A DNA stretch of 21,931 nucleotides from a bacterium (GTDB taxonomy: Bacteria > AUK180), in assembly GCA_023144005.1 (NCBI GenBank), contig JAGLGN010000026.1:1-21931 (forward strand), given 5' to 3'. Within the stretch, counting starts at the first letter, position 1, and every line of letters begins with the position of its first letter. Of the stretch, positions 2,884 to 18,260 are shown piece after piece. A program made the translations under genes and the position numbers. The notes beneath the pieces are model-generated. The model saw nothing but the letters and a program-made list of their open reading frames with translations, was not told where the DNA came from and searched no databases.

Positions 2884-4098
2884 TCATTCCCTCTCAAAAG
2901 CCCACTGCGAAATAAGGAATATGCCCATTCTCTCCAAAGGGAATTTCTCGGGAGGCATGGAGTTGAATGCCGCAAACAATTCTCGGCGGGGTAATAATCC
3001 GACTTCCACACCCGATAATGTTCTTACGGTGTGTTCTAAAAGAGGGGTTTTCTCAAAATACTTCCTTATTTTAGGATCTCCGACGAGTATTGTGTCAAGA
3101 GGATCTCCTTCCTTAAAGAGATTCTTGTAGGCATAGAAGATCGCGGAAGGGACCTTTCTGAACATCGAAAATCGTGAAAGTGCGTCAAGGGAGGTCAATG
3201 TCTTTGAATATGCCCCGTTGATGAGGGTCTTTTCCTCCGACTTCGGTGTAGAATAATCCCAGGAATAATCCCCTACCTTCTCCGCAATTTCAGATGTGTT
3301 TATGATGTACTCATCCTTCAGGCCGGTTTCGGACATCTCCTGAGCACTCTTGAAGTAGAATTGATCATTGGGGAATTTAAAACCCGAATAATAGCCGAAT
3401 CTGGTTCCGATGAGAAGTTCCTGCGCGAAGGCATCCTCCTTATTCAGATAATGCGCATCCTGCGCCGCGACGACCTTAACTTCCATCTTCCCCGCAAACT
3501 CGATCAAATGTTCGAACGCCTTTGTTTCATCGGGAATGAAATGGTCGGCAACTTCAAAATAGAGGTCCTCTCCAAAGAGATCTTTTAATTCGGATGCCAG
3601 CGACAATGCATTGTCGGTAGCGCCTGTAAAGAGGTATTGGGGAACCCCGCCATAATAACAGGCAGTAGTAATTATCAGTCCTTCACTGTAACGGGAAAGC
3701 AGCTCCACATCCAGTAAACCGCGTTCGACCGAACGCGGATGCATTCTGAAATAATTCTTTGTCCATGACTGATTATGCAGCATAATTAAATTCTGCAGGC
3801 CCTGATCGTTCTTTGCAATGACCACTAAGTGAAACCTCTCATTATCCTTGGTTTGAATGCTCTGCTGCGCATTTTTCACAAAATAAAATTCGCTGCCTAA
3901 AATCGGTTTGATATCGTGTTTATTTGCGGCCGTGATGAATCGGGGGAAAGCGGCCAGAGAATTATGATCTGTGAGAGCTACCGCTCGCTGACCGAGAAGA
4001 GATGCCTTTTCACAAAGCTTATCGCAGGAGATGATCCCATCATTGTGAGAACCGTCCGTATGAGTATGGATCGAGACATAATCCTGCTCTCTGACCAT
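2884..4098 (-). CDS. Stand-alone PHP-domain protein of the DNA polymerase III alpha (DnaE) type
   Basis: 404 aa. Residues 1 to about 260 follow the PHP domain of DnaE closely: SIHTHTDGS, AVALTDHNS, KPILGSEFYF, HLVVIAKNDQGLQNL, GLIITTACYYGG, AAQDAHYL. All the residues expected to bind the metal cluster are present: His11, His13, Asp44, His45, Glu70, His90, Cys147, Asp214 and His216. There is no polymerase palm, finger or beta-clamp motif, so this is not DnaE. The last 140 residues have no family I recognise. PHP domains act as phosphoesterases (3'-5' exonuclease or phosphatase); the substrate here is unknown. The ATG is two bases after the stop of the CheW-like gene, with no strong Shine-Dalgarno, so translation is probably coupled. 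Its place at the end of a chemotaxis-pilus operon is unusual. Confidence 0.85.
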   Translation of the reverse strand: MVREQDYVSIHTHTDGSHNDGIISCDKLCEKASLLGQRAVALTDHNSLAAFPRFITAANKHDIKPILGSEFYFVKNAQQSIQTKDNERFHLVVIAKNDQGLQNLIMLHNQSWTKNYFRMHPRSVERGLLDVELLSRYSEGLIITTACYYGGVPQYLFTGATDNALSLASELKDLFGEDLYFEVADHFIPDETKAFEHLIEFAGKMEVKVVAAQDAHYLNKEDAFAQELLIGTRFGYYSGFKFPNDQFYFKSAQEMSETGLKDEYIINTSEIAEKVGDYSWDYSTPKSEEKTLINGAYSKTLTSLDALSRFSMFRKVPSAIFYAYKNLFKEGDPLDTILVGDPKIRKYFEKTPLLEHTVRTLSGVEVGLLPRRELFAAFNSMPPEKFPLERMGIFLISQWAFERE

Positions 4099-4100
4099 GT

Positions 4101-4445
4101 TCAGGAACGGTCCAATATCTCTTCAGGACTTATTATTTCCGTGTTTTCCTGTATCTTCTTATAAATTCCAAATACCTCGCCGCAGCCGATGCCGAATTTT
4201 TTCTCCTTTACCTCAAGGACCAAAAGATACTTCTTTTCGATATCCACCGAAAGACCCAGTAATTTGGCGTTAACCACAGGGATAGACCCGTGCTCCATAT
4301 CAGCCATTTCAATGAATACATCCTTGTCTCCCGGATACGGAACGATCTTCGAAGGATAGCGATAGATATGACTCACATAAAGCGGGTCAATGGCATATTT
4401 CGCATCGCCGATGCCGATGTGCATATAATAGTTAACGGATGCCAT
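4101..4445 (-). CDS. Minimal CheW-like protein
   Basis: 114 aa, shorter than the usual 140-170 aa CheW. The pattern YAIDPLYVSHIYRYPSKIVPYPG, then GSIPVVNAKLLGL, then FGIGCGEVFGI follows the order of strands and turns in the CheW/SH3-like fold (interface strand, IPVV-DLR-like turn, GxxVD-like turn). The second subdomain seems reduced and the common NLRG-type motif is missing (MEHGSIPVV instead). CheW proteins join CheA to receptors; this divergent one may dock to another partner. It overlaps the end of pilT by 14 bp and runs two bases short of the PHP gene, so it is translated with PilT. Family assignment is moderately sure, function is not. Confidence 0.65.
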   Translation of the reverse strand: MASVNYYMHIGIGDAKYAIDPLYVSHIYRYPSKIVPYPGDKDVFIEMADMEHGSIPVVNAKLLGLSVDIEKKYLLVLEVKEKKFGIGCGEVFGIYKKIQENTEIISPEEILDRS

Positions 4446-5697
4446 AATGCTTATACAGTTCGACCAGCTCTTCCTTGTTCATTGTACGGGTCATGGCATC
4501 CTTTTTTGAGATGAGTCCTTTTTTCACAGCAACCGCGAATGCCTCGTTCATCGTCTGCATCTCATACTTCTTACCCACCTGAAGAGCGGAATAGACCTGA
4601 TGCAATTTATCCTCCCTGATCATCGCACGGATTGCAGGAGTAGGAACAAGGATCTCAGCGATCAGAGCACGGCCGCTTCTTCCCATTCTGGGAATGAGCT
4701 GCTGCGTCATAATCCCTTGGAGAACAAAAGCGAGCTGAGTTCTGACCTGGGATTGCTGATGCGCCGGAAAAACATCGATCATTCTGTTTATTGATTCAAT
4801 GGTGCTGTTCGTATGCAGGGTCGCAAAAACAAGGTGGCCCGTTTCCGCGATCGTAATGGCTGCGCCTATGGTCTCAAGATCTCTCATCTCACCGATCATA
4901 ATAACATCTGGATCTTCTCTCAATACATATTTAAGAGCAGTGGGAAAGCTTTCGGAATCCTCTCCGATCTGACGCTGATTGATGATCGATCTCTGATGCT
5001 GATGCGTGTATTCTATCGGATCTTCTATGGTGATGATATGAAGAGGCTTATTCCTGTTGATATAATTTATCATGGAGGCAAGTGTGGTGGATTTCCCCGA
5101 GCCTGTTGGTCCGGTGACCAGAACAAGGCCCTTGGGAACATCAACAAAACTTCTGACTGCAGATGGAAGGCCCAATTGATCAAAGTCAAGAATTGTATAT
5201 GGGATCTGCCTGATCGCGGTAGCGATCGCGCCGCGTTGTTTAAAAATATTCGCTCTGAAACGGGAGAGTTTCTGAATACCGAAGGAGAAATCAAGCTCAT
5301 TGCTCTGTTCAAAGTCCTTTTTCTGTTTATCTTTCAAAACCGAATACACCAGCGATTGGACCTTATCTGGAGTTAATTTGGAATACTGATACATCTTGTA
5401 AACATCCCCGTCAACGCGGACGCATGGAGGAATTCCAACGGTTAAATGGAGATCACTGGCACGGGACTCGACCATTTCAAATAGGAGCGTTTTCAGATCA
5501 GCGCTGGTTAAATTTGCTTTTGCTACATCAGGAGGCGGCGCCTTTGAGGGGTCTACTATAAAATAAACCTCTTTTCCCCTGAGTTTTCCTCTTGGAGTAA
5601 CATTCTTGGGAAGGTTCAATCCACCTGTAGCAACAGCATTCGCCTTCGGGGCCGAACTTGACTGACCCGTTTTCTCCACATTGTCAAAAAAAGCCAT
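4432..5697 (-). CDS. pilT: PilT-type type IV pilus retraction ATPase with N-terminal extension
   Basis: 421 aa hexameric ATPase that powers pilus retraction (twitching) at the inner membrane. The PilT/PilU N-terminal motif ASDLHLTVG is at about 80-88. The Walker A box GPTGSGKST is at 196-204, the Asp box IEDPIEY at about 224-230, Walker B IMIGEMRD at about 266-273 and the His box ATLHTNS at 292-298. AIRAMIRE (355-362) is a near match to the AIRNLIRE motif typical of PilT rather than PilB. Compared with usual PilT (about 345-365 aa) it has some 60 extra N-terminal residues, including a low-complexity SSSAPKAN stretch and a KEVYFIVDPSKAPPP segment. The start overlaps the cheR stop in TAATG with AAAGGAG upstream. 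Found among che genes, it is a likely output motor of this pathway. Confidence 0.92.
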   Translation of the reverse strand: MAFFDNVEKTGQSSSAPKANAVATGGLNLPKNVTPRGKLRGKEVYFIVDPSKAPPPDVAKANLTSADLKTLLFEMVESRASDLHLTVGIPPCVRVDGDVYKMYQYSKLTPDKVQSLVYSVLKDKQKKDFEQSNELDFSFGIQKLSRFRANIFKQRGAIATAIRQIPYTILDFDQLGLPSAVRSFVDVPKGLVLVTGPTGSGKSTTLASMINYINRNKPLHIITIEDPIEYTHQHQRSIINQRQIGEDSESFPTALKYVLREDPDVIMIGEMRDLETIGAAITIAETGHLVFATLHTNSTIESINRMIDVFPAHQQSQVRTQLAFVLQGIMTQQLIPRMGRSGRALIAEILVPTPAIRAMIREDKLHQVYSALQVGKKYEMQTMNEAFAVAVKKGLISKKDAMTRTMNKEELVELYKHYGIR

Positions 5698-6518
5698 TAT
5701 GTACTCCTTTTCTTCTTATATACTTTGTTTTTGTTCGAAACGACATCAAAAAGGGCCTTCCCATCTGAGAAGATCGTTTCAACCCGGCCCAAAACTAATT
5801 GGCCATCATCCCTGATATGTATTCTAAATGTGTTCAATATCTGATTCTGAAGCTCTCTGGAAAAATAAATGAACACATTGCGGCATAAGATAAGATCAAA
5901 TTTTACATCCCAGCAAGAGTTTATTAAATTCTGTATCTTGAATTCCACCTTATCACGGATCTCCGGAATAATATGGAAATAATTCCCCTGCCTTTGAGAG
6001 AACATATTAAAGACATTACGAAATCTCCCGTTAACACTGAAAAGAGATTTGGGCGTGTATACACCCTTCTGGGCAATTTCGACCGATGGCGTATCAATAT
6101 CTGTCGCGAAAACAGTAAATCTAAAATTTGCGCCTTTAGTGATTTTGTAATTTTGCAGAAGCATGGCGATAGAGTAAGCCTCTTCACCACTCGCACAACC
6201 GGCTGACCAGATATTCAGATGCCGCCGATCTGCGATCTCAGGAAGTATTGTGTCATAAATATAATCATATGTGGCCTCGTCCCTGAAGAATCTTGTTACA
6301 TTGATCGTAATGGTTTTGTATAGAACATTCAACTCTTTTTCATCGTCCAGGATGAGACTGATATAGTCATCGATATCTTCCAATTTGCATAGCATCATTC
6401 TTCTTTTGATCCTTCTGCTTAAACAGTTGATCTTATAGCTGGTGAAATCTGAATCGAACTTTTTCTTTAATATGTCAAATATTTCGTGGATCTTTACTTC
6501 ATTTAGAGGGTCTGCCAT
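5697..6518 (-). CDS. cheR: Chemotaxis protein methyltransferase CheR
   Basis: 273 aa. It methylates receptor glutamates with SAM in sensory adaptation, opposing CheB. The N-terminal helical domain (1-75) ends with TINVTRFFRD (71-80), the CheR signature. The SAM loop is WSAGCASGEEAYS (104-116), with ATDID (138-142), LILCRNVFIYF (209-219) and GQLVLGRVE further on. There is no C-terminal pentapeptide-binding insertion that I can see. It is joined to both neighbours by TAATG overlaps, with GGAG ahead of its own ATG. Confidence 0.95.
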   Translation of the reverse strand: MADPLNEVKIHEIFDILKKKFDSDFTSYKINCLSRRIKRRMMLCKLEDIDDYISLILDDEKELNVLYKTITINVTRFFRDEATYDYIYDTILPEIADRRHLNIWSAGCASGEEAYSIAMLLQNYKITKGANFRFTVFATDIDTPSVEIAQKGVYTPKSLFSVNGRFRNVFNMFSQRQGNYFHIIPEIRDKVEFKIQNLINSCWDVKFDLILCRNVFIYFSRELQNQILNTFRIHIRDDGQLVLGRVETIFSDGKALFDVVSNKNKVYKKKRST

Positions 6519-7822
6519 TATTTTTCTCCAATACTCTCTAAATTCGTTTTTGCGATCTTATTCTCCGGGTCGTGTTTTAAAGCATGCTTCCAGGCCTCCA
6601 CAGCTTGAGAGGTGTTACCCTCCTTGAGGTAGATCGCGCCGAGTTTCAGGTAGGTCTGAACATTGCCCGGTTGTATTTTTAATATCTCTTTGTACTTCCC
6701 AGTAGCATTTGTGAGGTCTCTGACCTTGTAAAAGTACCCCGCCATTTCCCAGAGCAAGGGAACATTACCCGAATTGTGCTTAAGACCCTGCTTCAGGTAG
6801 ACGACAGCCTTCTCGTCCTTTTTCAAACGAAAGAATATCTTTGCCAGAAGAAGGTATACAAATGGATGCTCGGGACTTATTTTTAAGACCTTGGTGAGAA
6901 CCTCCCCCGCATCTTTCAACTTGGAAAGGTATATGTCGCAAACAGCGATATATAAATAGATGATCGGATTGTCGGCAAACAAAGCAAGCACCTTCTGAAA
7001 TTCATTTAATGCCTGGCTATAAAGGCCTTCTTTAAAATAATTATAACCCTCATTAAAATACTCACTTTCACTTAAGAGGGATTCAACCTCTTCGGGGAAT
7101 TCCTTTCTCAATTCATCCGTAGCTGTCTCAGTTTCCGTAAGTACAATATTGCCATCCTTGATAAGTTTCTCTATTGCTTTGAATGTTTCAAAAAGTGAAT
7201 ACTTCCCCGAATTAAGGGCGCCGATCAGAGAGGGCGTCTTTTTTATGCCGTTCGCGAGACAATAGTCCAGATATCCCTTTGGGGTAGGCACTTTCACTAT
7301 TTTCACTCCCGATCTAAGGTTTAAATCTGAGAAATAAGTAGCGATCGCCTCGGCACGCATCAAGGAATCCATGATAAGCTTCTGAATATCGATCTTTATC
7401 CCGGATTTCTTGAACTTATCCATTTCCTGATTGGTCATGGCATTGAAAGTGAATTTACCGAATTCGATCCCAATGATATCCAGAAGAAGCTCTTTGATAT
7501 GTTCCGCTTTCATCTCATCCAATTTGGCCTTGCTAACGCTTTTCTCCTGGATCAAAAGGTTCAGGACCTCTGCCTGTTTCTTCGATTTTGACAAGAGCTC
7601 CTTGATCTTTTCCAAAGAGAGACCGGACTTAATAAAATATAGTTCTAATAAACTTGTCTTCAGAAAATTTGTTTCAACATTGCATATATTTCCATTGAGA
7701 ATGTATATATTGTACTTGAATTCATCTATGCCGACCTCCAATATACCGGTCTTCGTGGAAAAGAAGAAGAGTTGAAATATTGTCGGCAAATGTATTGTGT
7801 TTATATTTCCTTGAAACGTCAT
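6518..7822 (-). CDS. PATAN (DUF4388) domain protein with C-terminal TPR repeats
   Basis: 434 aa. The N-terminus, MTFQGNINTIHLPTIFQLFFFSTKTGILEV with YILNGNICNVE, is the PATAN/DUF4388 pattern; residues about 100-150 (HIKELLLDIIGIEFGKFTF) fit its second half. Residues about 155-250 look like a further helical region. From about 255 to 430 there are roughly five TPR units with the usual small-residue and aromatic spacing. PATAN proteins in cyanobacteria are known to bind the pilus motor PilB and steer phototaxis. That precedent, and the neighbouring pilT, suggest this protein links the Che pathway to the pilus motor; this is inference. The ATG follows the stop of the TPR gene by one base, with AGGAAG as Shine-Dalgarno. 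Confidence 0.85.
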   Translation of the reverse strand: MTFQGNINTIHLPTIFQLFFFSTKTGILEVGIDEFKYNIYILNGNICNVETNFLKTSLLELYFIKSGLSLEKIKELLSKSKKQAEVLNLLIQEKSVSKAKLDEMKAEHIKELLLDIIGIEFGKFTFNAMTNQEMDKFKKSGIKIDIQKLIMDSLMRAEAIATYFSDLNLRSGVKIVKVPTPKGYLDYCLANGIKKTPSLIGALNSGKYSLFETFKAIEKLIKDGNIVLTETETATDELRKEFPEEVESLLSESEYFNEGYNYFKEGLYSQALNEFQKVLALFADNPIIYLYIAVCDIYLSKLKDAGEVLTKVLKISPEHPFVYLLLAKIFFRLKKDEKAVVYLKQGLKHNSGNVPLLWEMAGYFYKVRDLTNATGKYKEILKIQPGNVQTYLKLGAIYLKEGNTSQAVEAWKHALKHDPENKIAKTNLESIGEK

Positions 7823-7823
7823 T

Positions 7824-9731
7824 TCATCTTCCTGTTGAACTTTCCAATTTTTTTATCCAATCACTGGCCTCGGTAATTCCCGAGCGGGCTTCCCTGATCT
7901 TCGCCTTATCTTTTCCTTCTTTTATAAACTCGCCCCAAAGCTCTTTTGCTTCCTTGTACCATGCCTTGTTGAAGAAAACCTTCGCCAGATAAAATTTCAC
8001 ATCAATGAAGTCGTCTTTCAATTCCAGGGTGCGGCGATACTCCCATGCCGCTTCATCCCACCATCCCGAAAATGCATAAACACTTGCCAGATTATAATGT
8101 GAAACGGGGTCATTAGGATCGATCTGAATAGCCTTGGTAAACATCTTTATCGCACCCTTAGCATTCTTGCTCATTTGATAAAGAGCGCCGAGGTTGATGT
8201 ATACCTCCTTTTGCTTCACTTTGTCCTTGATGAGTTTTTCATATATTGAGATCGCATCCGGCACCTTTTTTTCCCTGACATAAAGATTTGCCAGTTTCAT
8301 CTTATAATTAATATTATCCGGGGTAATGCTGATCGCCTCCAGAAGCAGTTTCCGGGCCTTATTATAATTTTTCAATTGACTGTTAAGCATAGAGAGTTCC
8401 AGATAGATACCGGGATTCTTCGGCTCCATTCTTAACCCCTCTTTCAGATATTTCTCCGCCTTATCAAAATTCTTGATCATCCTGTAGGCTCTACCCAATT
8501 TAACTCTGATCTCCTTTTTATTCGGGTTCTTCTTAAGGATCGAATTCAATTGTTCTATGGCTTTTTTATATTCCCCTTCCTCCAAAAGGACGGAAGAATA
8601 GATATCAATACCATCCAGAAAATTAGGATTGATCTTAAGCGATTTTTCAAGAAGTTTTTTTCCTCTCTCCCGGTTACCTTTCTCGTATAAGATATATCCG
8701 ATGAACCCTATTGCGTAATAATTGCCAGGATCACTCCCCTCCACCTCTTCAAAGATCTCAAGCGCGCGATCATGGTCACCCGTTTCATACTCCACCTTCG
8801 CGAGATTGATCTTTGCGTCAAGATAGTCGGGATTGATCGCCAATGCCTTGGTCAAATAGTCACGTGCGGGATCCGGCTGTTTTAAGGCATGGTATAGAAC
8901 ACCAAGATTATTCAACAATGTCTCATTGTCGTCCTCGAGTTCCATAGCTCTTTCAAGGTATTCTATCGCCATCGTGAATTGTTTCTCTTTGATATAGATC
9001 TTGCCGAGATTGATATGGGGCTCTGAGAATTCAGGATCCAATTCGACAGCTTCCTTTAATTTTTCAATGGCTTCACTTATCCGGTTAGTAGAGAGAAAAA
9101 CCTGTGCCATCGTATTCGCAACCCTTGCTTTATCAGGATCGCGTTTCTTTTTTAATACTTCGGCATCCTCTTCATACATTGCCATGGCTTTTTCATCTAT
9201 CGCTATTCTTTTGGTCTCCGCGAAGTTCGGATTGATCTCGATTGCGGTATTGTATTCTTCCTGGGCCTGATCATAGAAACCCTTTTCTCCGTATAGGAAA
9301 GAGAGGTTATAATGGGCAAGGGCATTCTTGGCATTTATGCTTAACGCCTTTTTGAATAGTTTAAGGGCATTATCATACATTCCCATGTGATAATATATCT
9401 CACCTAAGGAGTTATAAGCGTCGTCCATCTTCTTATTTTTTAAAATGGCCCTTTTATATAGGGCGATGGCATCGTCGTAGGTATAAACCGTTTTATCTTC
9501 TGATTCAGTTTCAAAGTCATAACCGTCTTCGATAGCCTTTTTCACTGCCTGCGCATAATTCTTTATGGCAAGAGTATATTCGGAATCCAGGGTAAGGGCT
9601 TTCTTGAAGGAATCGATGGCTTCTGCATAAAGTTCTTTGGAATAGAAAAAAGCTCCCAGATTGTTCAAAGACGCTGGAGAGTTCTCATCCACCTTCGCAG
9701 CGAATTTCTTAAAAAATTCTTTCTTACTCAT
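7824..9731 (-). CDS. Large TPR-repeat protein
   Basis: About 635 aa, nearly all tetratricopeptide repeats (roughly 14-16 units of 34 residues), recognisable from repeated patterns such as AYNSLGEIYYHMGMYDNALKLF and INLGKIYIKEKQFTMAIEYL. TPRs are protein-protein scaffolds. There is no signal peptide, so it is probably cytoplasmic. A charged stretch (about 90-100, FETESEDKTVYTYDD) breaks the repeats. The ORF is open to a TTG at 9752; the ATG at 9731 (MSKKEFF) is chosen because it overlaps the cheW stop by eight bases (ATGAGTAA) and begins a normal TPR N-terminus. Between cheW and the PATAN gene, it is a candidate scaffold for the pathway. Confidence 0.9.
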   Translation of the reverse strand: MSKKEFFKKFAAKVDENSPASLNNLGAFFYSKELYAEAIDSFKKALTLDSEYTLAIKNYAQAVKKAIEDGYDFETESEDKTVYTYDDAIALYKRAILKNKKMDDAYNSLGEIYYHMGMYDNALKLFKKALSINAKNALAHYNLSFLYGEKGFYDQAQEEYNTAIEINPNFAETKRIAIDEKAMAMYEEDAEVLKKKRDPDKARVANTMAQVFLSTNRISEAIEKLKEAVELDPEFSEPHINLGKIYIKEKQFTMAIEYLERAMELEDDNETLLNNLGVLYHALKQPDPARDYLTKALAINPDYLDAKINLAKVEYETGDHDRALEIFEEVEGSDPGNYYAIGFIGYILYEKGNRERGKKLLEKSLKINPNFLDGIDIYSSVLLEEGEYKKAIEQLNSILKKNPNKKEIRVKLGRAYRMIKNFDKAEKYLKEGLRMEPKNPGIYLELSMLNSQLKNYNKARKLLLEAISITPDNINYKMKLANLYVREKKVPDAISIYEKLIKDKVKQKEVYINLGALYQMSKNAKGAIKMFTKAIQIDPNDPVSHYNLASVYAFSGWWDEAAWEYRRTLELKDDFIDVKFYLAKVFFNKAWYKEAKELWGEFIKEGKDKAKIREARSGITEASDWIKKLESSTGR

Positions 9732-10143
9732 AGAATTCGAGAACCTTCTCAAGACTTAATATCATTATCGGTTTATCGTTGACCTTTCCTAAACCATATA
9801 CAAAATCCTCTTCGATACGGAAAATATTTTTATTTTCGCGGTTGATCTCATCCTCGGACAATTCCACGACCTCCAGAACCTCATCAATGACAAGTCCATA
9901 TTTCTCTTCCCGCCAAAGAACTATGATGACATCCTGGCTGCTGCCTTCTTCAAGAGCATCCATGGACAAGCGCTTTCTCAGATCAAGAACGGTGATGATC
10001 TCACCTCTGAGGTTCATAAATCCCGTAATGATCGGATTAACTCCGGGAACAGATTTTAATGAGAATTCTTTTACGATCTCCTTAACCTTCATTATGTCAA
10101 AACCGAATAGTTGATCTCCCAATCTAAAGGAAACAGATTTCAT
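9724..10143 (-). CDS. cheW: Chemotaxis adaptor CheW
   Basis: 139 aa, a single CheW domain. It couples receptors to CheA in the chemosensory array. Key patterns are FGFDIMKVKEIVK near the N-terminus, GFMNLRGEIITVLDLRKRL (about 41-59, the canonical NLRG-xxxPVxDLR region) and GLVIDEVLEVVEL (about 83-95). It is the most canonical of the three CheW-like proteins in this operon. The start overlaps the cheC stop in TAATG. Confidence 0.93.
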   Translation of the reverse strand: MKSVSFRLGDQLFGFDIMKVKEIVKEFSLKSVPGVNPIITGFMNLRGEIITVLDLRKRLSMDALEEGSSQDVIIVLWREEKYGLVIDEVLEVVELSEDEINRENKNIFRIEEDFVYGLGKVNDKPIMILSLEKVLEFYE

Positions 10144-10739
10144 TACACCAATCCTAATTTATCTAAAATAACCTTCAATCCATTATTGAAGGGCGCAAGT
10201 ATGAAATACGGAGTGTATTCCCTGGCCTTGTCCGAAAGATTGGTCTTAATAATGAAGATCTCTTCCGAAATATTGATCTCTGTCTCAAAAATATCTATAA
10301 AGATATCCTCAAGTGTCCCTGAAAAAAATGTAGGTACAGACGGTATCATGAGAAGGTTTATCATATCCCCCATGGCACCCAGATAATTGGCAGTGAGAAT
10401 ATTTCCGATCTCCTTAATTGTGGAAATGCCGTTCTCGTCCAATTGTGTCACTACATCGGTCTTGCCTGTCATGAGCCTGCTTACCATACTGATACCTTCG
10501 CTTTTCTCAACAAAAAACACATTCTTACCCGGAATCTCTCCCAGGATGACGAATTCCACCGCAAAGAATTCTTTATCTTTTAACGACGCGTGCAGATTGC
10601 TTCTATTGACAATATTTGTTTGAGGAATATCTATGGTGATCTCTCTATGTATCAGGCTTGCCAGAGCGGTCGCCGCATGGCCGGCGCCGATATTCCCCAA
10701 CTCCTTCAAGGCATCTATCTGTATATTAGTCAATTTCAT
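10143..10739 (-). CDS. cheC: CheY-P phosphatase CheC (two intact active sites)
   Basis: 198 aa. CheC dephosphorylates CheY-P and is stimulated by CheD. The family signature (D/S)xxxExxN followed 23 residues later by P occurs twice: Asp9-Glu13-Asn16 with Pro39, and the SxxxExxN in STIKEIGN with a matching proline in MIPSVP. Both half-sites therefore look functional, as in Thermotoga CheC. It lies two bases after cheA (stop TAG, GGAG within the preceding codons), which gives a strong translational link. A second, partly degenerate paralogue is at 14248-14871. Confidence 0.9.
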   Translation of the reverse strand: MKLTNIQIDALKELGNIGAGHAATALASLIHREITIDIPQTNIVNRSNLHASLKDKEFFAVEFVILGEIPGKNVFFVEKSEGISMVSRLMTGKTDVVTQLDENGISTIKEIGNILTANYLGAMGDMINLLMIPSVPTFFSGTLEDIFIDIFETEINISEEIFIIKTNLSDKAREYTPYFILAPFNNGLKVILDKLGLV

Positions 10740-10741
10740 TT

Positions 10742-12721
10742 CTACTCCAAGAGTGCCGCGATATCCAATATCAAAGCGGGCTCTCCATTTGAAAGAAGGC
10801 CTTTACCCGAATAGAGTTTTGCCTTCTTCAATATCGAATCAAGATTCTTGATAACCGTCTGCTGCTTGGAATGCAGCTGGTCAAAAACCAGTCCGGCGAT
10901 CTTGTCTCCGAGCTCTACGAATATTACTGGAAATACTTCTCTTTCTTGTCTCTCAAATCCAAGCACTTCATCCATACGGATCAGAGGGACGACCAGCTCA
11001 TTTCTGAGAAAGATCACTTCCCTGCCTTTTATGATCTGAATGCTATCCTTCGTCTGTTCCATTGTCTCTTGGATATTAGAGATCGGGATAAGGAATTTAA
11101 CACCGCGTACCGATACGATCAGCGTCTGAATAATAGCCAGGGTCATAGGCAGGACGATATGAAAGTTCGTTCCTTTTCCTTTAGTGGATTCGATCTTCAG
11201 AACTCCGTTCAGGGAATCGATCTTATTCTTGACAACATCCATACCCACACCGCGGCCGGATAACTCAGTAACCTTATCCGATGTTGAGAACCCGGGTTTG
11301 CATATGAGCATAAATACATCGGACTTGCTCATTGTGGAAAGTTTCTCTTTCGTCACAACACCCATTTTCAGGGCCTTACTCTGTATCTTATTGATATCCA
11401 GGCCATTGCCGTCATCGTTCACTTCTATAACTACACGGTTCTTCTCTCTGCGTGCGATGAGGTTTATATTCGCGGTTTCAGCCTTACCTAATTTCTTCCT
11501 CTCCTTCGGGGTTTCAACACCATGATCCACGGCGTTTCGGAGAAGATGAATGAGCGGCTCGTCTATCTCGTCAAGGATAACCCTGTCCAACTCAATGCCG
11601 CTGCCAGTAATGGTAATATTGACTTTTTTATTGAATTTTCTGGAAATATCTCTGACAATGCGAGGATACTTATTGAAAATATGTCCCACGGGTACCATTC
11701 TCGCCAGAAGAATTCTATCCTGAAGATTCGCTGTTATCCTCTGAAAGTTGTTTATCTCGTCATTAAGAGGTTTGATATTGTAATCTTTGGAAATGTCATC
11801 AAGCCGTATCGTATTGATGATCAATTCGCCGATTAGGTTGACAAGGGCGTCAAGATGCGATATCTTCACCTTAATAGTAGGTTCAACTATAGATTTCTTT
11901 TTCTTCTTGTCAATAGGGGCTGAGGGAGCGGCAACCGGAGGTTCAGGAGCATTTTGCTCGGAATTAAGGCTCTCCTTGCTTATCGGCTCCATTGAAATGC
12001 TATCGACCTCGCGAATGGAATTCAGGATCTGATATGTTTCATTTGGTTCCTGATCGCCTGTAAAAAAGACCACAAACTCATATAGGTCTTCACTTTCTTC
12101 AAGTTCTTCGGCGGCGGGGATCGTTTTGATTATGGTGCCGAGCTCAGACAATTTCTGTGTTATTTGAAATACCCTTACAGAGGGCATAACAGCATTTTTC
12201 GATATGTTAATGGTGAATTGAAGGACTGCGTTGCCGGTATCAAGTAATTGCTCGAAGGCCTTCGCCTCAAAGTCGCTATAGCTTATAACGATCCCATGTT
12301 CTTTCCTTACGGTTACAGCAGCATCCGATTCGGAAGAAAGGGTTCCAGAGAGAAATTTCCTGATCTTCGCCGCATGATCTCCGCTTCCTTCGGGTTCTTT
12401 TCCCGTTTCTGCAACACTATCCAGCATTGCCTTGAGATCGTCCAGCCATGCATAAAAAAGGTCAAAATCAGAGAGGCTGAAATCCAGTTTTCCCGATTTA
12501 ATCTGGCTGAATACATCTTCAAGCGCATGGGACACTTCCGATATGGAAATGAAGTTCATGGCGGAAGCCATTCCCTTCAAGGTATGTGTATTACGGAAGA
12601 TCAATTCTATATTCTCATTTCTTTCATTCCCGTTTTCGATCTCCAGCAAAGCATTGTTCATGCTCTCCATATAGTCAAAGGATTCACTAAGGAACATCTC
12701 CAGGTATTTATTGTCTTCCAT
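10742..12721 (-). CDS. cheA: Chemotaxis histidine kinase CheA
   Basis: 659 aa, a full CheA. The P1 domain (1-105) has the phosphorylated histidine His46 in NTHTLKGMASA. A P2-like CheY/CheB-binding domain is at about 140-245, then a Pro/Ala and Lys-rich linker (255-280). P3 dimerisation helices run from about 282 to 340. The P4 kinase domain has the N box HLLRNAVDHG (392-401), G1 DDGNGLD (436-442), F box GFSTSD (477-482) and G2 GRGVGM (489-494). The P5 CheW-like domain is about 530-659. Nothing essential is missing. There is no fused receiver and only one Hpt domain, unlike the multi-domain ChpA kinases of the Pseudomonas pilus pathway. The start overlaps the cheB stop (TAATG). Confidence 0.96.
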   Translation of the reverse strand: MEDNKYLEMFLSESFDYMESMNNALLEIENGNERNENIELIFRNTHTLKGMASAMNFISISEVSHALEDVFSQIKSGKLDFSLSDFDLFYAWLDDLKAMLDSVAETGKEPEGSGDHAAKIRKFLSGTLSSESDAAVTVRKEHGIVISYSDFEAKAFEQLLDTGNAVLQFTINISKNAVMPSVRVFQITQKLSELGTIIKTIPAAEELEESEDLYEFVVFFTGDQEPNETYQILNSIREVDSISMEPISKESLNSEQNAPEPPVAAPSAPIDKKKKKSIVEPTIKVKISHLDALVNLIGELIINTIRLDDISKDYNIKPLNDEINNFQRITANLQDRILLARMVPVGHIFNKYPRIVRDISRKFNKKVNITITGSGIELDRVILDEIDEPLIHLLRNAVDHGVETPKERKKLGKAETANINLIARREKNRVVIEVNDDGNGLDINKIQSKALKMGVVTKEKLSTMSKSDVFMLICKPGFSTSDKVTELSGRGVGMDVVKNKIDSLNGVLKIESTKGKGTNFHIVLPMTLAIIQTLIVSVRGVKFLIPISNIQETMEQTKDSIQIIKGREVIFLRNELVVPLIRMDEVLGFERQEREVFPVIFVELGDKIAGLVFDQLHSKQQTVIKNLDSILKKAKLYSGKGLLSNGEPALILDIAALLE

Positions 12722-13755
12722 TACTTTCTCATAAATTTTTCAATGATATCAGGCATTCCGCTGAGATCGGCTTCATAATCGGCATATCCCTCTTGGATAA
12801 CTGCACCCGGCATGCCCCAAATGAACGCGGAGGCGCGCGATTGAGCAGCCACCATTCCTCCGAAATCCTTGATAACTTTGCAGCCCAGCGTGCCGTCACG
12901 GCCCATCCCGGTAAGAACGATCCCGAGGGTGTTCTTTTTGAAAAGTTGGGCGGCGGAATCAAAAAGGTAATCCGCGGCAGGCCTAACTCCCCACAAAGGA
13001 GGTTCTTTGGTCAGGCTTGAAAAAAGGCGCTTGTCCTTGACATCTATCTTAAAATGATTATTCCCTTTTCCCAGGTAGATCTTATTCGGAAGCAGTGGTT
13101 CTTCGGCTTCAACTTCTTTTACCTCGATCTCTGATATTCTGTTCAAACGCTCAGAGAAACTCTTTGTAAAGGTCTGCGGCATATGCTGAACAAGAAAAAT
13201 ATACGCTCCCAATTCTGATGGAATAGAGGGAACTAATTTTTCCAGAGCTTTAGGACCGCCCGTAGAAGCCGCGATAACAATACATTTACCCATTATTCCC
13301 GCTTTAGATGCCTCCACCTTTCGAATATGCTCTCTGTTCAGACGCTGAATTTTCTCAATAGGTATCAATGCTATCTCTTGAAGTTTTGAAACGATCTTAT
13401 GCTTGATGCTTCTCAGATTAGGAGATATCACTCCGGACGGCTTCTGGATCACATCGACCGCGCCGCATTTCAATGCGTTCAAAGTCGGCATCGCGTCAAC
13501 TGCACCAAATGCGCTGAGTATCACGATCTTGGTGGGATTGTCCCTCATAATGGCACGAACAGATTCGATGCCGTCCATCACAGGCATTTCAATATCCATG
13601 GTGACTATGTCTGGTGACAGGGTCTTCACCATTTCAACCGCTTCAGCGCCATTTTTTGCCAGGCCGATAACCTCGAAACCATCGATATCAGAAACGATAT
13701 CTTTGATGATATTTCTCATTAAGGCTGAATCATCGACTATTAATACTTTCGTCAT
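12721..13755 (-). CDS. cheB: Protein-glutamate methylesterase/deamidase CheB
   Basis: 344 aa. It removes methyl groups from receptors and deamidates them. The receiver domain (1-120) has the acidic pair in LIVDDS, phosphorylated Asp54 in VTMDIEMP and Lys105 in IQKPSG. The esterase domain (about 155-344) has the catalytic Ser164 in ASTGGP, His191 in VQHMP and Asp287 in GMGRDGT, at almost the same numbers as in E. coli. The usual AQDEASAVVWGMP stretch reads AQSRASAFIWGMP, a small departure. The first four bases overlap the cheD stop (ATGA). Confidence 0.95.
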   Translation of the reverse strand: MTKVLIVDDSALMRNIIKDIVSDIDGFEVIGLAKNGAEAVEMVKTLSPDIVTMDIEMPVMDGIESVRAIMRDNPTKIVILSAFGAVDAMPTLNALKCGAVDVIQKPSGVISPNLRSIKHKIVSKLQEIALIPIEKIQRLNREHIRKVEASKAGIMGKCIVIAASTGGPKALEKLVPSIPSELGAYIFLVQHMPQTFTKSFSERLNRISEIEVKEVEAEEPLLPNKIYLGKGNNHFKIDVKDKRLFSSLTKEPPLWGVRPAADYLFDSAAQLFKKNTLGIVLTGMGRDGTLGCKVIKDFGGMVAAQSRASAFIWGMPGAVIQEGYADYEADLSGMPDIIEKFMRK

Positions 13756-14246
13756 ACTACTAAGACCGGTTTATTGATACTGACAACCTTCACCTTGCCG
13801 GATTTCAATTCCAATTCAATTGTCCGGCCGTAATCCTCGCCGGTAATCTCCGCTTTTAAAGGTATCCGCTGCTTGACCAGCTCTTCTTTAACGGCAATTA
13901 CATTGCGTTTTCCGATATCCATGGAATCCCGTTCTGATTCAAAAGAGAACATCTTCGCTCCACCAAAGATCTTTGCTTCAAAGTTTATTATGTCGCCGCC
14001 GGCCGAAATAAGACTTGAGATCATTGTCCTTATTGCGGTGTCGGCATACTTCCCTTCCTTTACCAGAGCGCTGCTCTTGGCAATAGAAGAAGAAGGCAAC
14101 ATAACATGGGCCATCCCTCCCAATTTCTTATCGGGGTCATAAATGGTTATTCCCACGCAGGAACCGAGTCCATAAGTAACAAGGACATCATTATCCTTGC
14201 CTACCTTGAAATCTCCCATTCCGACTTTTACTTTGATTCCTTCCAA
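13752..14246 (-). CDS. cheD: Chemoreceptor glutamine deamidase CheD
   Basis: 164 aa. CheD deamidates receptor glutamines and activates CheC. The catalytic triad is Thr24, Cys30 in GLGSCVGI and His47 in GGMAHVMLP, spaced exactly as in Thermotoga CheD. IFGGAKMF and the NVIAVKEELVKQRIPL region follow as in the family. It starts with TTG, four to five bases after GGGGAG; the length of the N-terminus before the Cys supports this start over the internal ATG. It begins one base after the stop of the CheC paralogue and overlaps cheB by four bases. Confidence 0.94.
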   Translation of the reverse strand: MEGIKVKVGMGDFKVGKDNDVLVTYGLGSCVGITIYDPDKKLGGMAHVMLPSSSIAKSSALVKEGKYADTAIRTMISSLISAGGDIINFEAKIFGGAKMFSFESERDSMDIGKRNVIAVKEELVKQRIPLKAEITGEDYGRTIELELKSGKVKVVSINKPVLVV

Positions 14247-14247
14247 A

Positions 14248-14871
14248 TTACTCCCCTTTCAATTTCTGCATGATAGAAAGAAAGGACTCCTCGGTAGGCA
14301 TAAAGATGATATCAAAGAGGATCTCACGCTCGGCAGTTACGAATTCGTTCTTAAGAAGCAGCAGTTCATTTGATTCCGAAGCTGATTCAATACAGAACTC
14401 ATCCACAATACTGCCAAGGATATCGTACTTGATCTGCGGTGCGGATTGGATCATAGGCGCATTGATCATATTACCTATCGCGGAAACGTACGAGGAGATG
14501 ATGATATTGCCGATCTCCAAAAGGACAGAGCGTACCATTTCCTGTTTATGATCATTGAAGTCAAGACCCTCGACCTTTTGCCGGATCAAGACCTCTGCTA
14601 TGCTCTTTGCTTCCTCAACTGAGAACAGTATGAGAAATCTAGATGGGTATTTGCCTGTCAAATAGGCAAATACAACGACCTTTTCCAATTCCGGCCCGCC
14701 AAGATTATCAGGCATCTCTTCGGGTGAGATCACATCCAGGGATGGGACTTGCATGGAAATCGGTTGCGCCAGTATTTCAGAAAGGGATGTCGCGGCATTG
14801 CCAGTGCCAATGCTGCACAGTTCTTTTAGAACATCCCGTTCAAACTCGCCCAACTCATGATAATACCCCAT
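14248..14871 (-). CDS. CheC-family protein with one intact site
   Basis: 207 aa. The second active-site signature is complete (SVLLEIGN, with the downstream proline in IQSAP). In the first one the asparagine is replaced: DVLKELCS, where Asn is expected at the last position, although the downstream proline (QVPSL) is kept. Such single-site CheC relatives may be weaker phosphatases, CheD-binding regulators, or resemble CheX/FliY. No FliN-like C-terminus is present, so it is not FliY. It lies between cheY and cheD, which suggests it is the direct CheD partner. GAGGG precedes the ATG; it starts two bases after the cheY stop. Confidence 0.85.
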   Translation of the reverse strand: MGYYHELGEFERDVLKELCSIGTGNAATSLSEILAQPISMQVPSLDVISPEEMPDNLGGPELEKVVVFAYLTGKYPSRFLILFSVEEAKSIAEVLIRQKVEGLDFNDHKQEMVRSVLLEIGNIIISSYVSAIGNMINAPMIQSAPQIKYDILGSIVDEFCIESASESNELLLLKNEFVTAEREILFDIIFMPTEESFLSIMQKLKGE

Positions 14872-14873
14872 AT

Positions 14874-15254
14874 TTAACCCTCAAGTATCCTTGTAATCGC
14901 CTCAATCACAGAGGACGGCTGAAAGGGTTTTACCACAAAGTCCTTGGCACCGGCCTGAATGGCCTCGATGACAAGTGCTTTCTGACCCATAGCGGAGCAC
15001 ATCAAGATCTTTCCATTGGGGTCGATCTTCATAATTGCCTTCACCGCTTCAATCCCCCCCATTCCGGGCATTACAATGTCCATTGTGACCAGATCCGGCT
15101 GCAGGCGCTGGTATTTTTCAACCGCCTCTTTTCCAGTACTGGCTTCACCGACGACTTCATAACCGTTCTTTTCAAGGATATCTCTTATCATGGTCCTCAT
15201 AAAGATGGCATCATCGGCAATTAGAACTTTAAGCTTATTTCCAGCTTCGTTCAT
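14874..15254 (-). CDS. cheY: Response regulator CheY
   Basis: 126 aa single receiver domain. The acidic pair is Asp14/Asp15 in IADDAIFMR, the phosphorylated Asp59 is in VTMDIVMPGM, the switch serine is Ser87 in MCSAMG and the conserved lysine is Lys109 in VVKPFQ. No output domain is attached, so it acts by binding a partner; with pilT and a PATAN protein in the operon the pilus motor is a candidate, though a flagellar switch elsewhere cannot be excluded. A strong AAGGAGG precedes the start, the best ribosome binding site in the operon, which suggests high expression. Confidence 0.94.
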   Translation of the reverse strand: MNEAGNKLKVLIADDAIFMRTMIRDILEKNGYEVVGEASTGKEAVEKYQRLQPDLVTMDIVMPGMGGIEAVKAIMKIDPNGKILMCSAMGQKALVIEAIQAGAKDFVVKPFQPSSVIEAITRILEG

Positions 15255-15265
15255 ACAAAACCTCC

Positions 15266-16009
15266 TTATTTGGCTTTTATTGCTTTTTCCAATTCAAGTT
15301 TCTCTTCGCTTGAGAAGAGATTATGCAAATTCACCAGTGATACCACGCTCTCCGTAGCGTCTCTGGTATACTTTAAAATTTTATGCAGATAGTCGTTAAC
15401 TCCGCTGATAAGTCTGGGAGGGTCGAACACACTTACTTGTTTGAGATAAATAACCTCTATGATCCTGCGGGTCAGGATACATATCTTTTTATCACCCAGA
15501 GAGCAAACAATACCAAAGTGCTTCCCTGGGTCATTGGGCAGGCCCAATTTCATCTCCAGGTTCACCACAGGGATCATTTCGTCTCTCAAATTAAAAAGAC
15601 CCTCGACATATTCTTCAACATTCGACAACGCATTAATCTTATCAACTATAACTATCTCAATAATGTGAAGGATATCAATGGCATACTCTCCTTCGCCCAA
15701 AGCAAAAGATATAACCTCACTGACCGCCGAGAGGCTCTCCTGATCTGTGAGAACAGGAGCATCTTCAGAGTGTTGATCTGTCGGGGTAAACCCCTCCGGT
15801 TCGGCAGAAGCCGCCTTCTCTTCGTTTTCCGCAGCGAATACCTCAACGGCAGATTCATCTGCGGTACGCTCAACTTTTTCAACCGCCTCATCCTGAACCG
15901 CGGCTGGGTCTTCCTTCAATACGGTCTTCTTCTTGGGAGAGGCTTTTTTCTTGATAGCTTTTCTTACCTTACCCCCTATCTTGAAGTAGTTATACTTATT
16001 TTTTGTCAT
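15266..16009 (-). CDS. CheW-domain protein with long charged N-terminal linker
   Basis: 247 aa. Residues 1-95 are low in complexity: a basic start (KVRKAIKKKASPKKK) and then an acidic, Ala/Glu-rich stretch, probably disordered. The CheW domain is at about 97-235: VISFALGEGEYAIDILHIIEIV, GLFNLRDEMIPVVNLEMKLGL (NLRD in place of the usual NLRG) and KICILTRRIIEVIYL. It is presumably a second adaptor that reaches other partners through its linker. It overlaps the cyclic-nucleotide gene by 14 bp and precedes cheY by 11 bp. The basic head could bind membrane or nucleic acid, but this is a guess. Confidence 0.85.
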   Translation of the reverse strand: MTKNKYNYFKIGGKVRKAIKKKASPKKKTVLKEDPAAVQDEAVEKVERTADESAVEVFAAENEEKAASAEPEGFTPTDQHSEDAPVLTDQESLSAVSEVISFALGEGEYAIDILHIIEIVIVDKINALSNVEEYVEGLFNLRDEMIPVVNLEMKLGLPNDPGKHFGIVCSLGDKKICILTRRIIEVIYLKQVSVFDPPRLISGVNDYLHKILKYTRDATESVVSLVNLHNLFSSEEKLELEKAIKAK

Positions 16010-16460
16010 TCTGCTCTTCGAGTTTAACCATCTTTTGATTCATCTGTTTCAGCCTTTCACTCAGCTTCTTCACGATATTTAAAAGAATCTTAAGGGCGAT
16101 CTCCGGTTCCTTGTAGATCATGTCATTGAAACATTTACGAGTGATGACCAAAAGTTGGGAATCCTCCGCTATCTTGGCAGTTGCTGATCTCTGATCCTCA
16201 TCGATCAAAGAAAGTTCCCCCAAATAATCCCCTTTCTTAATGGATACCAGAAAGATATTCTCCTCGTCATCTTTACTCTTTTTGTAAAGATCAACGACGC
16301 CCGTAAGAATTACATACATGATCCCCCCCTGCATTCCTTCAAAGAATAGAGTCAGTCCATTCTTGTAATCTTTTACGAATGCAAGTTGAAGAACCCTTTC
16401 CATCTCATCCTTGGTTAATCCTCTGAAAAGTGGGATGTTCTCCAGTAGTTTATAATCCAT
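15996..16460 (-). CDS. Single-domain cyclic-nucleotide-binding protein (Crp-like sensor domain)
   Basis: 154 aa from this start. LLENIPLFRGLTKDEMERVL opens the cNMP-binding fold, and GELSLIDEDQRSATA (81-95) is the phosphate-binding cassette with the expected Glu and Arg. There is no helix-turn-helix, so it is not a transcription factor; a C-terminal coiled helix (KKLSERLKQMNQKMVKLEEQ) could pair with a partner. It is the first gene of the chemosensory operon and may bring a cAMP or related signal to it. The ORF is open to an ATG at 16499, but that lies upstream of the predicted transcription start and has no Shine-Dalgarno, whereas AGGAAAA precedes the ATG at 16460. Confidence 0.88.
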   Translation of the reverse strand: MDYKLLENIPLFRGLTKDEMERVLQLAFVKDYKNGLTLFFEGMQGGIMYVILTGVVDLYKKSKDDEENIFLVSIKKGDYLGELSLIDEDQRSATAKIAEDSQLLVITRKCFNDMIYKEPEIALKILLNIVKKLSERLKQMNQKMVKLEEQNDKK

Positions 16461-16477
16461 AAGTTTTCCTATTCTTG

Positions 16478-16506
16478 ATTTTACTATATTTCCTCTCATT
16501 TATCAA
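16478..16506 (-). promoter_or_regulatory. Sigma70-like promoter of the chemosensory-pilus operon
   Basis: On the minus strand TTGATA (16501-16506), a 17-bp spacer and TAAAAT (16478-16483). Transcription should start near 16471, giving a leader of only about 11 bases that still holds AGGAAAA before the first ATG. A weaker second set (TTTGGA, 16 bp, TACAAT) lies further upstream. Confidence 0.7.
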
Positions 16507-16598
16507 GTATTTTTCCCCTTAATATTGTATTTTAGGGCACCTTTTTCCAAACGCATTTGAATACTTCAGCGGGGGTAATAATCAGCTGACCATGAATC

Positions 16599-16627
16599 TT
16601 GACTTATTTCAGGATTTTATGTACAAT
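16599..16627 (+). promoter_or_regulatory. Sigma70-like promoter of the envelope gene cluster
   Basis: TTGACT (16599-16604), a 17-bp spacer and TACAAT (16622-16627). The start near 16634 gives a leader of about 30 bases with GGAGG before the ATG at 16664. An 8-bp palindrome TCAGCTGA (16582-16589) lies ten bases upstream of the -35. The promoter is divergent from that of the che operon. Confidence 0.7.
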
Positions 16628-16663
16628 CAACGAAGTGAAGTATTAAATTTTTGGAGGTTTCTT

Positions 16664-17116
16664 ATGAAAAAAGCATTTTTTATGCTGATTTTACTTGCCG
16701 TTGCATTCTCGGGAACTTTTATGAGTGCCGAGCAGAACGTCATTATTATGGGTGGTCAGCCACAACAGCAGCAGCAGCAGTCCTACTCTTCCGGTGGTGA
16801 CCCGATCACGGCTTCTGCAATTGCCGCGGCGACTCATGTAAACAAGATGATGTGGTGGGGCGCCGGATGTCTTTTCGGTATCCTGGGTGTCGGTGCCGCA
16901 TATTTGATCGAGCCTTCTCCTCCCGCGACCATGCTTATGGGTAAGGATGCCAATTACGCGGCGATCTTCACCGAGAACTACAAAAATACAGGAAAGAGCA
17001 TTCAGACAAAATACGCGCTTTACGGCTGTCTTGTTGAAGGACTGCTCATCAGCCTTTATTACCTCTTTGTTATCATCCTTTTTGCTGAAGTAGCAGACGA
17101 TCTTTATTATTACTGA
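16664..17116 (+). CDS. Secreted/membrane protein of unknown function, glutamine-rich
   Basis: 150 aa, not recognised. A signal peptide is clear (MKKAFFMLILLAVAFSGTFMSAEQ, cleavage probably near SA-EQ). A run of six glutamines follows (PQQQQQQSY), encoded by CAA and five CAG at 16763-16780, a possible slippage site. Two hydrophobic segments come next: WWGAGCLFGILGVGAAYLI (about 65-83) and a longer one, LVEGLLISLYYLFVIILFAE, near the C-terminus. The protein ends DDLYYY. The open frame reaches upstream to an ATG at 16592, but that lies above the predicted promoter; GGAGG six bases before 16664 decides the start. It is the first gene of the rightward cluster. Confidence 0.8.
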   Translation: MKKAFFMLILLAVAFSGTFMSAEQNVIIMGGQPQQQQQQSYSSGGDPITASAIAAATHVNKMMWWGAGCLFGILGVGAAYLIEPSPPATMLMGKDANYAAIFTENYKNTGKSIQTKYALYGCLVEGLLISLYYLFVIILFAEVADDLYYY

Positions 17117-17119
17117 TCT

Positions 17120-17827
17120 TTGAAAAAGACACTTCTCGTATCACTGATACTCATCGTATCAGCGTTAGTCTTCGGAGACCGGATAAATAAACTGGTAGCC
17201 GTGGTCAATATTGAAGTGACCACGCCCAAGGAATCCACCGTCTCCGAAGGCCGTCTTTTCTATTTCGACTACAAAATCCTTTTAGAAGTTACAAACCCCA
17301 TTCAACAGAAGATGTTCTTCTCGGATAATGTTCTCTCCATATACTACCCTGACTCAAAGAAAGCATTCTTATTCCGATCCAAGATCACACAGACTTTCCC
17401 TTTATTCGCTGTTCTTCTCATGACGGTCGAAGATGATCTCGGCTTGACGCAATTGGGCTTCAAGCTTGAGAGGACAGAGAAAAAGAAGCAAGGAAAAATT
17501 TTCGTTTTTGTTCCCGAAAATGAGATGCTGCGTAAAGAACTGGAATCATATGAAGTTGAAATAGACGGCAACGGCCTGGTCCTGAGTATCAGGGTCTTCG
17601 CAAAAGGCAGGCGCCTCGTCTCCGAAACCGCTATCTCTGATTACAAAGAGACAGGAAATCTCAAATTACCTCATCTCATCAATACCATCAAATATGATGC
17701 TAAAGGGAATGTCGTAACCAGCGAAAAAATGACCATGGATTCCATCATCGTTAACGCAATGATCCCGAAAAGGGTAAAGGAATTCTCTCTGCCCGAAGAT
17801 GCCGAGGTGGAAGAGATTGACTGGTAG
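17120..17827 (+). CDS. Exported LolA-like protein
   Basis: 235 aa with a signal peptide (MKKTLLVSLILIVSALVFG). The start is a TTG three bases after the preceding stop, without a visible Shine-Dalgarno, so it is probably translated by coupling. The body fits the outer-membrane lipoprotein carrier fold: SEGRLFYFDYKILLEVTNPIQQ, NVLSIYYPDSKKAF, ending with VVTSEKMTMDSIIVN. The similarity is of pattern only. LolA-type proteins bind lipid acyl chains in a half-barrel in the periplasm; a role in lipid or lipoprotein transfer for its neighbours is possible but unproved. Confidence 0.6.
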   Translation: MKKTLLVSLILIVSALVFGDRINKLVAVVNIEVTTPKESTVSEGRLFYFDYKILLEVTNPIQQKMFFSDNVLSIYYPDSKKAFLFRSKITQTFPLFAVLLMTVEDDLGLTQLGFKLERTEKKKQGKIFVFVPENEMLRKELESYEVEIDGNGLVLSIRVFAKGRRLVSETAISDYKETGNLKLPHLINTIKYDAKGNVVTSEKMTMDSIIVNAMIPKRVKEFSLPEDAEVEEIDW

Positions 17828-18260
17828 ATCTCTCATTCTCCTATTCGCGCTCATATTTCTATTAATACCTTCGACGATTTTCTCAGATGACACAGATAAT
17901 ATCAACTTCCTTCTGAACAATTATTCTTTCAAACAGAAGGAGAGTTTTGAATATCAGAAGCCCGTTTTTGATCGCTTATTCACTTTCAATGAACTTGTTT
18001 TTCTCGGAAGGAATCTGATACGATTATATCAGACCTTCATTTCATCCCAGGATCTGACAGTATGCATGTTCCATCCCCATTGCTCCTTATACGCGGATTG
18101 GGCGATCAATGAGTATGGAGCTATTCAAGGAGGCCTCATGTCCTCAGACAGAGTACTGCGGTGCAATGGATTCGGCTCCTATTATTATCCTGACATTCTT
18201 CCCGACGGAAAGATATTTGACCCCCCGGAGTATAATGCGCTATGGCAAAAAAATCCCTGA
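17799..18260 (+). CDS. YidD-domain protein with N-terminal signal/anchor
   Basis: 153 aa, against about 70-90 aa for ordinary YidD (membrane protein insertion efficiency factor). The YidD pattern is at about 70-140: FLGRNLIRLYQTFISS, CMFHPHCSLYADWAINEYG and SSDRVLRCNG, with the conserved cysteines. Ahead of it is a hydrophobic stretch (RSLILLFALIFLLIPSTIFS) that looks like a signal peptide or anchor, and a 40-residue spacer. This would place the domain outside the cytoplasm, unlike E. coli YidD, so a different role is likely. The ATG overlaps the previous gene by 29 bp; a TTG at 17817, nine bases after GAGG, is an alternative start and leaves the signal peptide intact. Confidence 0.82.
   Translation: MPRWKRLTGRSLILLFALIFLLIPSTIFSDDTDNINFLLNNYSFKQKESFEYQKPVFDRLFTFNELVFLGRNLIRLYQTFISSQDLTVCMFHPHCSLYADWAINEYGAIQGGLMSSDRVLRCNGFGSYYYPDILPDGKIFDPPEYNALWQKNP

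Follow-up and report, generated by a model that had tools for sequence, protein, structure and literature searches.

The window, the whole 21,931-nt stretch of DNA analysed here, contains a chemosensory operon of 15 packed genes on one strand (−), running from a cNMP-binding protein (beginning at 16499) to a PHP protein (ending at 2884). Junctions between the genes range from −29 to +11 nt, and a 65-nt gap follows the PHP gene, which is the last of the 15 and lies in the che operon where the preliminary description had placed it. The first gene (15996..16499) encodes a single-domain cNMP-binding protein (Pfam, 2.1e-18) with an intact, conserved phosphate-binding cassette, GELSLIDEDQRSA, and no HTH. 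It is followed by a CheW with an N-terminal extension (15266..16009; Pfam), and by CheY (14874..15254), a CheC-like protein (14248..14871), CheD (13752..14246) and CheB (12721..13755), these four assigned from sequence and synteny. The CheA kinase (10742..12721), recognized from its sequence, carries a CheW-like regulatory domain at its C-terminus. Next come a CheC-like phosphatase (10143..10739; Pfam), a further CheW (9724..10143; Pfam), a 642-aa TPR protein (7824..9752), a DUF4388 and TPR protein (6518..7822; Pfam), the CheR methyltransferase (5697..6518; Pfam) and a PilT-family type IV pilus ATPase (4432..5697; TIGR01420, 3.1e-144). A short CheW-like protein (4101..4445; Pfam CheW, 1.6e-06) lies directly upstream of the PHP gene.

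The surroundings of the operon provided several separate observations. Downstream of the PHP gene (236-2818, −) are OsmC, methyltransferase and GGDEF-PilZ genes, in an order shared with genome G004 (GGDEF 51% identical) and absent in G002. A dispersed repeat of ~104 nt, the ends of which match each other inverted, occurs at 90-230 and 2265-2382; the genome holds roughly 40 copies at least, mostly 86–92% identical, some of them in local arrays ~100 nt apart. Where the methyltransferase ORF (1359-2351) begins, it is overlapped by a diverged copy of the repeat, and translation probably starts further inside the ORF. On the other side, a divergent cluster of mostly short proteins without assignment (16592-19841) includes a gene (17799-18260, +) for a protein whose YidD domain (2.8e-17) is preceded by a signal-like N-terminal extension. 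The operon itself encodes no receptor; an MCP of ~572-578 aa, found outside the che clusters in every genome of the family (G000:C6:83911-84408, with one counterpart each in G001-G004), is a candidate receptor for it.

We identified the PHP protein (2884..4098, −; 404 aa) as a polymerase-less derivative of DnaE from its ORF, from Pfam, NCBIfam and PDB matches and from a tree. PHP was its sole Pfam match (E 1.3e-37). The NCBIfam DnaE models matched over residues 7-279 only, with scores far under their cut-offs (TIGR00594, 201 bits against a cut-off of 434; E 2.3e-59). Its top PDB match was Taq PolIIIalpha (7.9e-31), and its best solved relatives were the PolIIIalpha proteins of Taq, M. tuberculosis and E. 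coli. The search for a PolX-type PHP or nucleotidyltransferase domain with NCBIfam returned DnaE/PolC models and weak matches to other PHP models, and no PolX. In the AlphaFold model, which is reliable for the PHP domain only, this domain (~aa 7-280; 3259..4080, −) mostly had pLDDT values of 70-96, and the values beyond residue ~280 were <50. Foldseek aligned the modelled PHP part with DnaE PHP domains over 274-283 columns at an rmsd of ~3; the next-best matches were RNase AM and the C. violaceum PHP-fold amidohydrolase 2yb1 (AMP-bound).

The gene is not a DnaE cut off at a contig end, because the stop codon lies within the contig, and a separate full-length DnaE of 1203 aa is encoded on another contig of the same genome. 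Between two species of the genus its dN/dS was 0.098, similar to that of the neighbouring genes, indicating purifying selection; this value, together with conservation in seven genomes, ruled out a pseudogene or assembly artefact. Apparent internal stops in some matches came from alignments that extended beyond the natural stop. An anti-phage defence role was also considered, and PADLOC gave no match for the window's PHP protein.

All nine metal residues named in the preliminary description were found at their positions (H11, H13, D44, H45, E70, H90, C147, D214 and H216). They spell HHDHEHCDH, which fits the HHDHEH[C/H]DH set, equals the ligands of proofreading DnaE PHP domains, and is the pattern by which a 2026 survey of bacterial polymerases calls a PHP site active (PMC12926913). 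In M. tuberculosis DnaE1, the nine-ligand set holds three zinc ions (PMC5636811). When 13 polymerase-less relatives were aligned with 20 DnaEs, the nine residues were unchanged in all 13, proteins that span 25–48% identity. From its sequence we assign the protein to the PHP superfamily (PF02811) as a member of the active nine-ligand type, for which metal binding and hydrolysis are predicted. A non-catalytic scaffold, in which a metal-stabilised PHP barrel and a remnant of the palm would act as an array adaptor, would fit the way the family pairs with interaction modules such as CheW and TPR, and the PHP domain of E. coli DnaE does have a structural role (PMC3666897). However, purely structural PHP domains lose their ligands, with five of nine altered in E. 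coli (PMC5636811), and the invariance of all nine across the 13 divergent proteins argues most against a scaffold, which we consider quite unlikely.

The 140-residue C-terminus, described earlier as unassigned, proved to be a degenerate DnaE palm. We set the C-terminal parts of 12 family members against a profile built from 20 full-length DnaEs in hhalign, and obtained one collinear match (prob 97.5, E 5.4e-12) to residues 457-593 of the host's own DnaE. Reversed and shuffled DnaE profiles gave probabilities of 0.3 or less. Four other subsets of the family pointed to the same DnaE region (prob 81-95 for three, 3.4 for one), and a profile built just from the window's own family, too weak by itself (prob 4.4), fell at the same place. 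The profile-profile alignment thus ruled out a new domain. The host DnaE has its GRGS motif at 395, DVDLD at 435 and the third-Asp motif KWDILGL at 593, and the DVDLD Asp pair and the third Asp are the residues generally recognised as catalytic in C-family polymerases. In the 404-aa protein the PHP domain is joined directly to the part of the palm that follows the Asp pair, and the chain ends at the motif preceding the third Asp; DVDLD, the GRGS region and the KxDxLGL third Asp of a C-family palm were not found in it, since the protein aligns only to 457-593 after the PHP domain. On this alignment, the C-terminus (~aa 288-404; 2887..3237, −) is a degenerate version of the palm's second half; the stretch that holds the Asp pair has been deleted. 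The TIGR00594 match and the palm remnant both indicate common descent with DnaE. With the Asp pair gone and the chain ending before the third Asp, the protein cannot polymerise by the DnaE mechanism. The preliminary view of a stand-alone PHP enzyme without a polymerase part was therefore right about the loss of the polymerase site, but it had overlooked the palm remnant.

These features bear on whether the ancestral chemistry was kept, in which case the protein, working on its own, would degrade DNA or short RNA as a 3'-5' exonuclease or nanoRNase; candidate substrates include pGpG from c-di-GMP and DNA imported by the pilus. Polymerase-dead PolX proteins retain a PHP exonuclease (PMC9226535), the nine ligands are common to proofreading DnaE PHP domains (PMC5636811), and, polymerases aside, RNase AM has the closest fold; PilT is in the operon and a GGDEF-PilZ gene is downstream. 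Yet the parts that hold DNA (most of the palm, the fingers, the OB domain and the clamp-binding part) are gone, no repair or replication genes are nearby, and the associations of the family are with CheW, TPR and cyclases. We regard an exonuclease or nanoRNase as improbable, though with a real chance of being correct.

The preliminary description had proposed a search for stand-alone DnaE-PHP proteins and their neighbours. We sought relatives in 386 genomes spread over the domain, and found close polymerase-less relatives in only a few lineages besides the host class. In all, there were 14 polymerase-less proteins from four candidate-phylum lineages, with CheW, TPR and cyclase associations. 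A maximum-likelihood tree of PHP domains separated these 14 from 24 DnaEs by a branch with 100/100 support, which indicates one family and not repeated truncation of local DnaEs. Four relatives consist of PHP and TPR (574 and 594 aa in G215 and G074; 602 and 586 aa in G275 and G138), two are larger (861 and 850 aa in G182 and G035), and a second G275 relative, open at the contig end, has at least 1342 aa. A contig scan returned mostly Bacteroidota DnaE, and one close copy. The PHP-TPR gene adjoins dTDP-rhamnose-type genes in G215 and G074 (L148, L149), and in G275 and G138 (L150, L152) its neighbours are an ArgC-like gene on one side and acetate kinase on the other.

Several of the genomes compared are fragmented. 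Within the host class, sampled by seven genomes, a CheW-like gene stood directly upstream of the PHP gene in 7/7 genomes and in both families. Three other genera of the window's family (four in total) have the same operon order as far as their contigs extend, and in G002 opposite-strand genes follow PHP, which places it at the true operon end there. In the second family (G005, G006), the CheW gene precedes PHP and the remaining neighbourhood is different: in G005, Rnf genes, a CpsB-type PHP phosphatase and Ppx/GppA are upstream, and in G006 the CheW gene is broken by the contig end. The neighbourhood thus differs between families but the CheW-like and PHP genes stay together, so that these two form the constant unit. 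The CheW-like protein in the window has 114 aa, and in all five members of its family the CheW domain ends ~45 positions early; the G005 counterpart is full length (163 aa). Such stable linkage to che genes is expected of a chemosensory array component, for which physical association with CheW or CheA is predicted. Relatives from other phyla had no CheW neighbour in the stretches read, and the che linkage is limited to one class. Neither outcome by which the preliminary description would have been refuted was seen in the class, as the homologues kept their metal ligands and the link with che genes held; linkage to PilT was found only in the window's own family, one of the two. Taken as a whole, the earlier reading stood on the free-standing enzyme, its ligands and the che operon, but not on the C-terminus or the generality of PilT.

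Gene context also bears on the possibility of some other small-molecule phosphoesterase, acting on a sugar phosphate, nucleotide-sugar or polyphosphate-like compound and tied to surface polysaccharide or energy state. The TPR members beside dTDP-rhamnose-type genes or acetate kinase would suit such a role, as would the G005 copy that comes after CpsB/CapC and Ppx/GppA genes. The context varies by lineage, however, the PHP domain is of the DnaE type and not the CpsB or HisPPase type, and one member is fused to a cyclase; we think this alternative unlikely.

That fusion is the long G275 protein (L151:2-4027, −; G275:C511), which combines PHP and palm remnant with tandem class III cyclase domains and an AAA/STAND part. 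Over 430 aa, its cyclase pair aligns (8.8e-16) with the soluble adenylyl cyclase of humans; C1 retains the pair of metal Asp residues and C2 the N/R motif, a division that is usual in functional tandem cyclases. The fusion matches Pycsar cyclase models (PADLOC) through its cyclase domains only. Its closest relatives, the PHP proteins of G182 and G035, each neighbour a gene for a sAC-like cyclase-AAA-TPR protein of 1287-1300 aa (L153, PHP at 6998-9580 (+) and cyclase at 10707-14567 (−); L187, PHP at 7545-10094 (−) and cyclase at 3651-7550 (+)). The PHP and cyclase genes are convergent and touching in G035, and are separated by one small gene in G182, so that the neighbourhood is kept in two genera. 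The G182 protein gave a weak C-terminal PilZ match (0.012), and G035 gave none. In the window's genome we counted 27 matches to class III cyclase domains, but this count is weak evidence because such cyclases are common (71/116 sampled genomes at E 1e-15). Confinement of the cyclase link to one clade suggests one or two events and not many. The PHP-cyclase fusion is nonetheless a strong point for nucleotide signalling, though limited to one clade, and the idea of a nucleotide signal put forward in the preliminary description is better supported because of this fusion and the conserved PHP/cyclase neighbours in other phyla. The intact cassette of the operon's cNMP-binding protein also counts for it. 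Furthermore, the PHP enzyme Sb-PDE cleaves cAMP and cGMP weakly (PMC5460133), so that hydrolysis of cNMPs by a PHP site is chemically possible.

Our preferred explanation, held tentatively and at somewhat less than an even chance, is that the protein is a DnaE-derived, metal-dependent phosphoesterase of the chemosensory complex that is docked through CheW and acts on a nucleotide signal. The catalytic palm of a DnaE ancestor was excised and all that followed it lost, with retention of the nine-ligand PHP site. We infer that the CheW-like partner may dock PHP on the CheA/CheW array, where the site would cleave a phosphodiester or phosphomonoester bond in the signal, either a cyclic mononucleotide or a short oligonucleotide. 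Cleavage would lower the signal reaching the cNMP-binding protein or some other receptor, thereby resetting or tuning the pathway, and the output could pass via CheA/CheY to PilT-driven movement. Several points weigh against a nucleotide signal: the TPR-type members are near dTDP-rhamnose or acetate-kinase genes instead, the known chemistry of DnaE PHP is that of a DNA 3'-5' exonuclease, after DnaE the closest folds are those of RNase AM and a nucleotide phosphatase, and cyclases are common while the cyclase link is in one clade and the che link in one class. A broader proposal is that the family forms a new class of nucleotide second-messenger phosphodiesterase, DnaE-derived, wired through CheW in one lineage and fused to sAC-type cyclases in another as a synthesis/hydrolysis pair; we regard this as rather doubtful, but with a substantial chance.

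Comparison with known systems places the protein closest to the PHP domain of DnaE1 (DNA polymerase III alpha), with which it shares the closest sequence and predicted-fold match, the same nine ligands and a C-terminus collinear with the second palm half. Unlike DnaE1, it is without the GRGS region, DxD pair, third Asp, fingers, OB and clamp motif, and its family forms a separate clade from every DnaE sampled. As a precedent, non-canonical PolX and PolX-like proteins come nearest in kind, having given up polymerisation while their PHP site stayed intact (PMC9226535, PMC12926913); these belong to another polymerase family, however, and the PolX-like proteins are repair-type exonucleases, whereas the window's PHP is linked to signalling genes. 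Sb-PDE, compared by description only, is likewise a free PHP enzyme that cleaves phosphodiesters, but it is a secreted catabolic enzyme of Sphingobium and a separate PHP protein. RNase AM and 2yb1 share the PHP fold, but at 10–17% identity, and are of a shorter, non-DnaE PHP type. By analogy only, the G275 fusion resembles GGDEF-EAL dual signalling proteins in having a cyclase and a phosphoesterase in one polypeptide, although the domains are unrelated (sAC-type cyclase and PHP in the fusion) and the hydrolytic role of PHP is predicted.

Two surveys of bacterial polymerases discarded sequences without a polymerase domain (PMC3919608, PMC12926913), and because both required this domain the polymerase-less PHP family was outside their scope. 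We found no literature that connects PHP domains to CheW, or to adenylate/adenylyl cyclase, in a way relevant here, in a search that covered subscription journals thinly and leaves priority unproven. The PHP protein is probably a signalling enzyme of a kind not reported before, with an activity that is predicted. It would represent a replicative polymerase reduced to a PHP phosphoesterase and recruited into signalling, a parallel to polymerase-dead PolX. If the nucleotide-signal idea is true, the family would add a DnaE-derived type to the signal hydrolases of bacteria, and would bring into the chemosensory complex a nucleotide-cleaving enzyme in addition to the CheY phosphatases.
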